A DNA stretch of 8,491 nucleotides. Origin: a bacterium (lineage in GTDB: Bacteria; CSSED10-310; JAJRTK01). How positions within the stretch are numbered: the first letter of the stretch is position 1; every line of letters begins with the position of its first letter. The DNA lies in contig JAJRTK010000192.1 of NCBI GenBank assembly GCA_024278345.1, positions 1-8,491 of the forward strand, written 5' to 3'. Position numbers and translations under genes: made by a program. Shown here in pieces: positions 3,583-8,491 of the stretch. The notes below the pieces were generated by a model, which had not been told where the DNA came from, did not search any database, and saw only the letters and a program-made list of their open reading frames with translations.

Positions 3583-3601
3583 CGCGGCCCACAGGGCCGC
3601 G
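3583..3601. repeat. Perfect 8-base-stem hairpin
   Basis: CGCGGCCC and GGGCCGCG are separated by ACA. It lies between the third CGAGCGCAGCGAG motif and the ~99-base repeat Y, in the 3' region of two convergent genes. Confidence 0.55.
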
Positions 3602-3603
3602 GC

Positions 3604-3702
3604 CGGAGTCCCCGGATGATCGCCGGGTCACGCAAACGTGACCCGCCGAGCCAAGCGAGGCGCAAAGAGAGTGTCCAACTGTCCCGCTTTGCGTGGATGC
3701 CC
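3604..3702 (-). repeat. ~99-base dispersed repeat Y, copy A (inverted relative to copy B)
   Basis: The reverse complement of 6032-6129 aligns along this whole interval with only scattered substitutions and one length change near 3684-3691. The repeat contains the GGGTCACG/CGTGACCC hairpin (3625-3644), which is identical in both copies, and a CGAG-AGCGAG-type core. It begins about 60 bases after the hydrolase stop, in the sense of that gene, just as copy B lies 3' of the kinase in its sense. Together the two copies form an inverted repeat enclosing both genes. Confidence 0.85.
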
Positions 3703-6031: not shown

Positions 6032-6129
6032 GGGTATCCACCCAAGGCGGACAGTTGGACACTCTCTTTGCGCCTCGCTCTGCTCGGCGGGTCACGTTTG
6101 CGTGACCCGGCGGTCGTCCGGGGACTCCG
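6032..6129 (+). repeat. ~99-base dispersed repeat Y, copy B (inverted relative to copy A)
   Basis: Aligns with the reverse complement of 3604-3702. It contains the same GGGTCACG/CGTGACCC hairpin (6089-6108, 4-base loop). It begins about 210 bases 3' of the kinase stop, in the sense of the kinase. An open frame through it has nothing recognisable. Confidence 0.85.
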
Positions 6130-6134
6130 TCCCC
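6120..6134. repeat. Perfect 6-base-stem hairpin at the end of repeat Y
   Basis: GGGGAC and GTCCCC with a TCC loop, immediately followed by repeat Z. Copy A lacks this exact pairing: its sequence diverges just at this edge. Confidence 0.5.
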
Positions 6135-6242: not shown

Positions 6243-6573
6243 ATGTCGATTGCGAACGGAGTCATTGGGACCCTCAATGCAGCGTCACTGAGTATTGCGG
6301 CCATTGGACAAGGGCTCGCGGCGGTCCGTGGCCTTGAGACGAAGCATGGCTGACCAATCGACGTTGATGTTGGGTTGCCAGACAACACATGGACGCAGTA
6401 CTCCACTCATCTGGATGACGGTGCGAAAGAGTGAACTCAAGGGCCAGCGCAACGAGCATGAAGACAACCTTCTGGCGGCCTTCCGGAAACTGGTTCCTGA
6501 AAATGTCCGGGTGACGGTCATCGCAGATCGAGGATTTTCCGACACCAAGCTCTATTCCTTTCTTAATCGTATG
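6243..6573 (+). pseudogene. IS4-type transposase remnant with internal deletion and frame change
   Basis: Two pieces of one DDE transposase lie in different frames. The first (ATG 6243 to TGA 6351-6353) reads SIANGVIGTL, NAASLSIAAIGQGLA and ending ETKHG, which resembles the N-terminal helical region of an IS4-group transposase. The second starts near 6346 in another frame and reads DQSTLMLG, TTHGRSTPLIWMTVRKSELK, NEHEDNLL, VRVTVIADRGFSDTKLYSFLNR; this is the core with the second catalytic Asp (codon 6526-6528, ADRGF). The segment between them, which should carry the first catalytic Asp (an LDWT-like motif), is missing, and the pieces meet at about 6345-6350. Similarity stops abruptly near 6571, well before the catalytic Glu. 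It cannot encode an active enzyme. I see no terminal inverted repeats or target duplications. Family assignment is from remembered motifs and fairly secure for the second piece. Confidence 0.8.
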
Positions 6574-6577
6574 GTGC

Positions 6578-6754
6578 TTTCCAGCGATTTCGTCCTCCTT
6601 CGTTGGCGATGGCGATGACGTTGTTTCGGGTCAGCTTGAAGTTTGTGACCCACTTGTAATTCTTGGTGCCGCTCTCTTCCTTGCTGTAGCGGGTCTCTCG
6701 ACACTCCAGGACGGAGAGGAACTGCTCATCGCCCTTGGTGTCGATGTCGTGGAT
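6578..6754 (-). pseudogene. Fragment of a second, unrelated transposase
   Basis: On the minus strand a 59-residue segment reads IHDIDTKGDEQFLSVLECRE, followed downstream by KWVTNFKLTRNNVIAIANEG and GRNRWK. The pattern WVTN-x-K-x-T-x-x-N-x-x-x-x-AN-E-GGR-x-RWK resembles a C-terminal block of DDE transposases that normally continues as KIENEGFN. Here it breaks right after RWK and meets a stop (complement of 6563-6565). Upstream there is an in-frame TAG (complement of 6755-6757). No start codon or ribosome binding site is present, so this is a dead fragment. The family match is from memory and needs a search. Its 3' edge abuts the IS4 remnant of the opposite strand at about 6571-6578. Confidence 0.6.
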
Positions 6755-7117: not shown

Positions 7118-8002
7118 ATGAAAGACGCACGACCCAGCAAGACCGCGGAATTCGTGGCGTTCCAGAGAGCCTCCGAACGGAAGCATCCCTCGAGCGCACG
7201 CATCCTGGACGATCCATTCGCCCGGTTCTTCTTGACCAAAACCAGCCAGGCAGCCCTGGCGGCGTGGGAGCATGGCGGGAAGATCGGCGAGCTCCTGGGA
7301 TGGTTTTCCCTGGGGCTCACCACTTTCGTGGTGACGCGGCACCGGTACATGGACGACCGGCTGCTGGAAGCGCTAGCCGATAAGGAGAGAGCGCCTCAGC
7401 GGATCGTCGTGCTGGGCGCCGGGTACGACATGCGGGCGCATCGGCACGCGGAGGCCATCGGCGGGCGGCCCTTCCTGGAAGTGGACCATCCGGCCACGGG
7501 AAAACGGAAAACAAGGATCCTGGAGAAGCTGGAAAGAGAAGGCCGGATCACTTCTCCCAAGGCGGACCGCCTTCTCATGGACTTTCAGACGGAATCCCTG
7601 GAGGAACGCCTTTCCCGGGAGGGTCTCAACGGTGAGGAACGGGTGTTCTTCATCTGGGAGGGGGTCTCCATGTACTTGACCCGGGAGGCGGTGAAGAAGA
7701 CGCTCCGGACGCTGTGCAAGGTCTCGGTGCCGGGCAGTGAAGTCGTGTTCGACTGTTGGTTCCTCCTGGATCAGCCGGACCTTCGGAGCGCGTCTCACAG
7801 GATCATGTCGAATGTGCTTCTCCTGCTGGGAGAACCGTTGCTCTTCGGGATCCATCCGGAGGATATCGGAGGCTTCTTGGAGCGGTGCGGTCTGGAACTC
7901 GTGGAAACGGTCTCTCCAGCGGAGCTCGAGGAGCGCTACGTCCGGGATGATCGCCGGGTGTACCCGGCCTGCTACATGGTTTGGGCGCGAGTGGCGGGAT
8001 AG
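7118..8002 (+). CDS. SAM-dependent methyltransferase, LCM/TIGR00027 type
   Basis: A 294-residue class I methyltransferase of the leucine-carboxyl-methyltransferase-like family (Pfam PF04072, TIGR00027), which transfers a methyl group from S-adenosylmethionine to a substrate that is usually unknown in bacteria. The N-terminus PSKTAEFVAFQRASE with ILDDPFARFF (29-38) is the family signature. Motif I is VVLGAGYDMRAHR (97-109), the acidic SAM-ribose strand is FLEVDHPATGKRK (119-131), MDFQTESLEERL (154-165) is the next strand region, and IWEGVSMYLT (179-188) is the family's motif around the active site. A C-terminal ERCGLELVE and SPAELEERYV part completes the fold. Length is typical and all motifs are intact. 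It stands alone between transposase debris and a repeat array, so transfer is possible, but base use looks like the neighbours. Actinobacterial homologues are often annotated as polyketide or glycopeptidolipid methyltransferases; nothing here supports that role. Confidence 0.9.
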   Translation: MKDARPSKTAEFVAFQRASERKHPSSARILDDPFARFFLTKTSQAALAAWEHGGKIGELLGWFSLGLTTFVVTRHRYMDDRLLEALADKERAPQRIVVLGAGYDMRAHRHAEAIGGRPFLEVDHPATGKRKTRILEKLEREGRITSPKADRLLMDFQTESLEERLSREGLNGEERVFFIWEGVSMYLTREAVKKTLRTLCKVSVPGSEVVFDCWFLLDQPDLRSASHRIMSNVLLLLGEPLLFGIHPEDIGGFLERCGLELVETVSPAELEERYVRDDRRVYPACYMVWARVAG

Positions 8003-8284
8003 GCGGTTTGGTTGCCTTCGCTTATCGCCAACGCTTGGCCCAACCGGCCTCTTCGTCGGGCAGACATTCTCGATGGTTTGCAAGGCGACGCCTCCGAGGG
8101 TCCGTTCACCCGGCCTGGTCCCCGGGTCGGATTGGCCGGAAACGGCGACTCTCCGTGAAGAGCGGATGGCGCTGCAGGGCCAAAACGCCTGCGCCGCGGG
8201 TTCGGCCAAGAAGGGACCTATCAAACCCGGTTGACAAGTGGCCCCGAGCCTCCCCTGCAACTCCGTGAAGCCCGTCCGGCACGC
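8003..8284. other. Non-coding stretch between the methyltransferase gene and the repeat array
   Basis: No gene is supported. Plus-strand frames here are short and Arg/Pro-rich. The long minus frame is antisense to the methyltransferase and simply continues out of the repeats. No clear intrinsic terminator follows the TAG at 8000-8002. Confidence 0.55.
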
Positions 8285-8491
8285 CAGCGGCAGGATGCCG
8301 CTGCCACCCTTTCTCCAGCGGCAGGATGCCGCTGCCACCCTTTCTCCAGCGGCAGGATGCCGCTGCCACCTTTGCGGGGCCGCCTTTTCTCCAGCGGCAG
8401 GATGCCGCTGCCACCCTTTCTCCAGCGGCAGGATGCCGCTGCCACCCTTTCTCCAGCGGCAGGATGCCGCTGCCACCTTTGCGGGGCCGCC
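8285..8491. repeat. Two-level tandem array of palindromic repeats, cut by the window end
   Basis: Six copies of a 24-base unit start at 8285, 8316, 8347, 8392, 8423 and 8454. Each holds a perfect inverted repeat, CAGCGGCA-GGA-TGCCGCTG, followed by CCACC. Spacing is 31, 31, 45, 31, 31: the third and sixth units are followed by a longer spacer with GCGGGGCCGC instead of CTTTCTC. The array is therefore a 107-base super-repeat (8285-8391), with a second copy from 8392 that runs off the window. Units are identical to one another, which points to recent expansion. With seven-base spacers, all alike, this is not a CRISPR. It looks like a REP/BIME-like palindromic element expanded in tandem. Confidence 0.95.

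Follow-up and report, generated by a model that had tools for sequence, protein, structure and literature searches.

The tandem palindrome array at the end of the analyzed window (the whole 8491-bp stretch of DNA, which is the entire contig C116) is best explained, with a probability of about 0.87, as a minisatellite within one copy of a MITE, which would have expanded by slippage or unequal exchange at a hairpin and would be moved in trans by a putative DDE-type transposase. Judging from its sequence, the array, which adjoins a terminal inverted repeat located 71 bp before its start, belongs to a dispersed element that the first-pass annotation had not seen. The genome assembly comprises 6.06 Mb in 550 contigs and is estimated to be 87.9% complete.

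Within positions 8285-8472, six identical copies of a 19-bp palindrome with 8-bp arms (CAGCGGCA-GGA-TGCCGCTG) are present at 8285-8303, 8316-8334, 8347-8365, 8392-8410, 8423-8441, and 8454-8472 (strand not applicable), with start-to-start spacings of 31, 31, 45, 31, and 31 bp, and these coordinates confirm the layout described previously. The third palindrome lies within a 45-bp unit (8346-8390) and the sixth within a truncated 45-bp unit (8453-8491). Units of 31, 31, and 45 bp build a 107-bp super-repeat on the plus strand (8284-8390), which is followed on the same strand by a second one (8391-8491) that reaches 101 of 107 bp before the contig ends. The two super-repeats are identical over all 101 shared positions (100% matches by TRF), so the nested tandem array proposed in the first-pass annotation is real, its 107-bp unit repeating without mismatch to the contig end; the contig stops within the array, which is therefore cut short here. 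The expectation that the unit would recur elsewhere in the genome was also borne out, since the palindrome with its CCACC flank gave 226 matches in the whole genome (138 + 88) and none in the reversed control. When folded as DNA, the 107-bp unit had a z-score of -4.3 relative to shuffled sequences, and this value, together with the genome-wide palindrome counts, shows that the window array is not due to chance. A CRISPR array was rejected because the spacers between palindromes are themselves repeated rather than unique, and a minus-strand ORF across the array (7373-8476), opposite a methyltransferase gene, looks spurious.

The connection between the array and the MITE is provided by a 13-mer, GGGACCTATCAAA, which was found by reading the arrays and adjoins three of them. 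In the window, it occupies positions 8213-8225 on the plus strand and forms the terminal inverted repeat at the right MITE end; the sequence below 8213 is outside the element, whose reading direction in the window is leftward. Local alignment delimits its right half (8213-8303, minus strand), which consists of this end, a subterminal GGTTGACAA, a spacer, and the first palindrome and is subfamily-B-like, with a local alignment score of 82 against B-type elements compared with a shuffled maximum of 28. Directly outside, GCCAAGAA (8205-8212, plus strand) would be one copy of an 8-bp target-site duplication, the position being taken from 36 of 52 other copies of the element and the partner being expected beyond the contig end, where the far end of this MITE copy would also lie. 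The window and C325 were considered as two ends of one element; this is probably not the case because they differ in their 8-bp flanks (TTCTTGGC versus GATCCGTT), although about 30% of element copies have no perfect duplication anyway.

Analysis of the whole genome revealed how abundant the carrier is. The 13-mer occurs in 151 exact copies, compared with 0 for its reversed control, and terminal inverted repeats of the form GGGACCTATCARA (up to 2 mismatches allowed) bound both ends of 54 complete elements, 45 of which are exactly 154 bp in length. A perfect 8-bp target-site duplication was observed in 36 of the 52 testable copies, among which no perfect duplication of 4-7 or 9-11 bp was found. 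The centre of the element is a hairpin, CACCGGCA-TCT-TGCCGGTG or a variant of it, and the element fold has a z-score of -4.3. Of the 54 copies, 35 and 9 make up two main subfamilies, which have the ends and the centre in common and differ in the sequence in between. Three features of a MITE, namely terminal inverted repeats, a duplication of fixed length, and short, non-coding, high-copy dispersal, are found in this element. Among the matches listed, 40 copies were 97-99% identical to the query element, which indicates a recent spread in the genome. In the copy on C36 (locus L048, element at 1359-1513), the centre has been turned into a palindrome with 22-bp arms, one side mirroring the other, as if the template had been switched at the hairpin.

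A search of the same genome for related DNA detected further arrays on C28, C325, C274, and C140, and tandem palindromes are found on at least nine contigs (C116, C325, C274, C28, C140, C494, C153, C445, and C407), with every array running into a contig end. The left MITE end is kept at the arrays of C28, C325, C153, and C445 and the right one at those of C116, C494, and C407; six arrays besides that of the window therefore show one MITE end each, and both ends are visible at none, as each array meets a contig end. The unit periods are 31 and 45 bp in C116 and C325, 31 and 56 bp in C274, 35 bp in C28 and C140 (the latter also having one unit of 42 bp), 43 bp in C494, 43 and 45 bp in C153 and C445, and 42 bp in C407. 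Since the periods differ among arrays and the units are made up of the centre of the element itself, the expansions arose more than once, separately in different copies. In C494, two unit types alternate with a period of 86 bp. The arrays of C153 and C445 have different flanking DNA yet carry the same run of distinctive neighbouring units, which may imply that arrays moved with the element or were copied between loci. Such arrays also explain why the assembly breaks at these places.

The higher-order structure is older than the identity observed in the window. The C325 array, with spacings of 30, 45, 31, 31, 45, 31, 31, 45, and 31 bp, contains 3.3 copies of the 107-bp super-repeat with an 89% match, or a divergence of about 11% from copy to copy, and only 2 of its 10 units contain a perfect palindrome by our own count. 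A diverged array with the same 31-31-45 order shows that the nested order is real and predates the identity of the window super-repeats, which in turn points to later exchange or homogenization at that locus. The earlier proposal of recent amplification is likely to hold for the identical units of the window, whereas the nesting itself did not arise through a single recent duplication of a block. The idea of an expandable locus is supported.

It is possible to outline how such arrays could be generated. The MITE would be moved by a transposase supplied in trans, whose DDE type is suggested by the 8-bp target duplication. The polymerase could stall at the hairpin during replication, and the hairpin segment would be duplicated by slippage between the short direct repeats that flank it. 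Slippage classically occurs at hairpins that lie between such repeats. In the single-unit element, the hairpin is flanked by GCGAAG and, on its opposite side, by CGGAGG; the junctions of C494 alternate between GCGAAGG and GCGGAGG, which resemble these two short flanks. From two or three units on, unequal exchange would add multi-unit blocks and thereby yield the 31-31-45 higher-order repeat, and the array could then spread as the copies that carry it move or are duplicated through gene conversion. Slippage followed by unequal exchange is the expansion route that we infer from these sequences, and no host function would be necessary for the array.

A search of the ISL3, IS256, DDE_Tnp_1, ISKra4, and Y1 families in this 87.9%-complete, 550-contig genome found no autonomous partner with the ends of the element. 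For ISL3, one copy (C5) is interrupted by another MITE and has the apparent end GGCTCTTCGCC, and the other (C395) is a fragment; no IS256 transposase was found; the single DDE_Tnp_1 match is a fragment located where a contig ends, ISKra4 is represented by decayed relics that lack the element's ends, and Y1 by one gene on C390. A match on C142 resembling the terminal inverted repeat falls within a reading frame and was not considered further. In addition, four loci (L106 on C5, L061 on C78, L168 on C481, and L170 on C464) carry another MITE-like family, whose ends are GGCCTCGGTCATGGTACCGGCCAC, one copy interrupting the ISL3 transposase gene on C5 and another, on C78, replacing half of an GGGACCTATC element. 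The Y1 (IS200-like) gene (L104, C390:21000-24368; gene at 1511-2236) has internal palindromic GGGTTCGGAACCCGCCCC repeats and lies directly downstream of a 165-bp MITE-like element (L104 1323-1487) with diverged ends and no target duplication.

The first-pass annotation had suggested that the array might be a by-product of a REP-associated Y1 (RAYT) transposase, that is, an array of the REP/BIME type. The REP-like palindrome is indeed present in hundreds of copies, partly in tandem, and the genome contains one Y1-like gene (C390, 241 aa, 30 bits) that has MITE-like ends in its vicinity; tandem REP clusters are also known (PMC3733652). However, what is dispersed here is a 154-bp element bounded by terminal inverted repeats, not a free-standing palindrome of 20-40 bp that carries a GTAG/CGTC tag, and the sole Y1-like gene was not found adjoining any array. 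Moreover, the element is accompanied by exact 8-bp duplications, which, to our knowledge, Y1 (HUH) transposases do not make. A RAYT origin is thus unsupported, having been largely refuted by the target duplications, and we consider it very unlikely. Even less probable, and hardly credible in our judgment, is that the nested repeat was created by the assembler. All nine arrays meet contig ends and the two super-repeats of the window are identical, but an assembler cannot invent copies diverged by about 11%, as in the C325 super-repeats, nor do the unit periods agree between arrays. Because the diverged C325 array has the same 31-31-45 order, the nested order is not an artefact, while the assembly may still give the wrong number of copies for the window.

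Slightly less improbable, though still very unlikely, is that the array is kept by selection, either as a nucleoid-protein or gyrase site or through an RNA-level effect on the upstream LCM-type methyltransferase gene. The RNA fold of the region has a z-score of -3.2, and the palindrome variants of this genome and two others all stay paired, with both sides changed in 4 of 8 pairs, a proportion inflated by our choice of rows among recognizable cores. On the other hand, most units of the older C325 array have lost the perfect palindrome, the nine arrays occupy separate places, scans detected no Rfam family and no promoter-like or terminator-like site, and the full element was not found in any of seven further genomes from the phylum. 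The data give no good reason to think that selection for the hairpin acts on the arrays as such, and the previously suggested gyrase or nucleoid-protein binding array is unsupported here. Expansion within a MITE remains the preferred reading.

Other repeats were also observed in the window. An 89-bp inverted pair (3601-3689 and 6044-6132; 92% complementary) contains a GGGTCACG...CGTGACCC palindrome and is probably another dispersed repeat family, because similar sequence stands beside MITEs on C205, C153, and C445. A short plus-strand ORF (6295-6618), which resembles part of an IS4-type transposase on account of an ADRGF motif, had no Pfam match.

Beyond this genome, the palindrome pattern was detected in 2 of 385 other genomes. 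One of them, a member of the same phylum (G003; loci L161-L163), has a different MITE with ends GGCGTCGGCCGAAT that carries GTGGCACAGGC palindromes, one or two per copy, and in which CATTCTTG and CAAATTCA are, on visual inspection, apparent 8-bp duplications. The same hairpin module in a MITE with different ends suggests that it may pass between elements. A search of genome contigs also identified one truncated copy of the 154-bp element in a MAG labelled Myxococcota (JAJRTE010000302.1), and searches of plasmids and viral contigs gave no match.

The origin of higher-order tandem repeats has been studied mostly in eukaryotic satellites. Here, many single-unit elements coexist in one genome with copies of two to five units and with older arrays of higher order, by which a palindrome array becomes a traceable process, and these stages make it possible to test how tandem repeats driven by a hairpin begin and how they acquire a higher-order structure. 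A tentative and rather doubtful extension is that a bacterial mobile satellite exists, in which the centre of the element would repeatedly become higher-order tandem arrays that spread within the element, parallel to eukaryotic satellites born from transposons. In a limited literature search, no case of bacterial higher-order repeats in MITEs was found by title or abstract, and searches for the palindrome's sequence returned unrelated papers only.

Several known systems share features with this element. Bacterial MITEs such as NEMIS, RUP, ERIC, and Nezha (PMC3733652) are likewise 70-300 bp in length, with inverted ends, no coding capacity, a stable fold, and high copy number, whereas the sequence family described here was not identified among known ones and shows internal tandem expansion. 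REP/BIME sequences associated with RAYT (PMC3733652) are similar in having a short GC-rich palindrome in hundreds of copies, some in tandem clusters, but the present palindrome is embedded in an element with terminal inverted repeats and target duplications and lacks the linkage of a tag and RAYT. The closest likeness is BrickBuilt of Porphyromonas gingivalis, a MITE with an internal minisatellite (PMC4596501), which is also non-coding, with small inverted ends, inner tandem repeats, many copies per genome, and a copy number that differs from locus to locus. Most of the 19 BrickBuilt copies contain 23-bp repeats, and no target duplication accompanies them consistently (PMC4596501), whereas the element reported here occurs mostly as single-unit copies and has a hairpin unit, periods that differ by copy, a higher-order repeat, and a regular 8-bp duplication. 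The arrays thus look like a known but rarely described bacterial kind, the MITE-borne minisatellite, with an unusual repeat-of-repeats layout.
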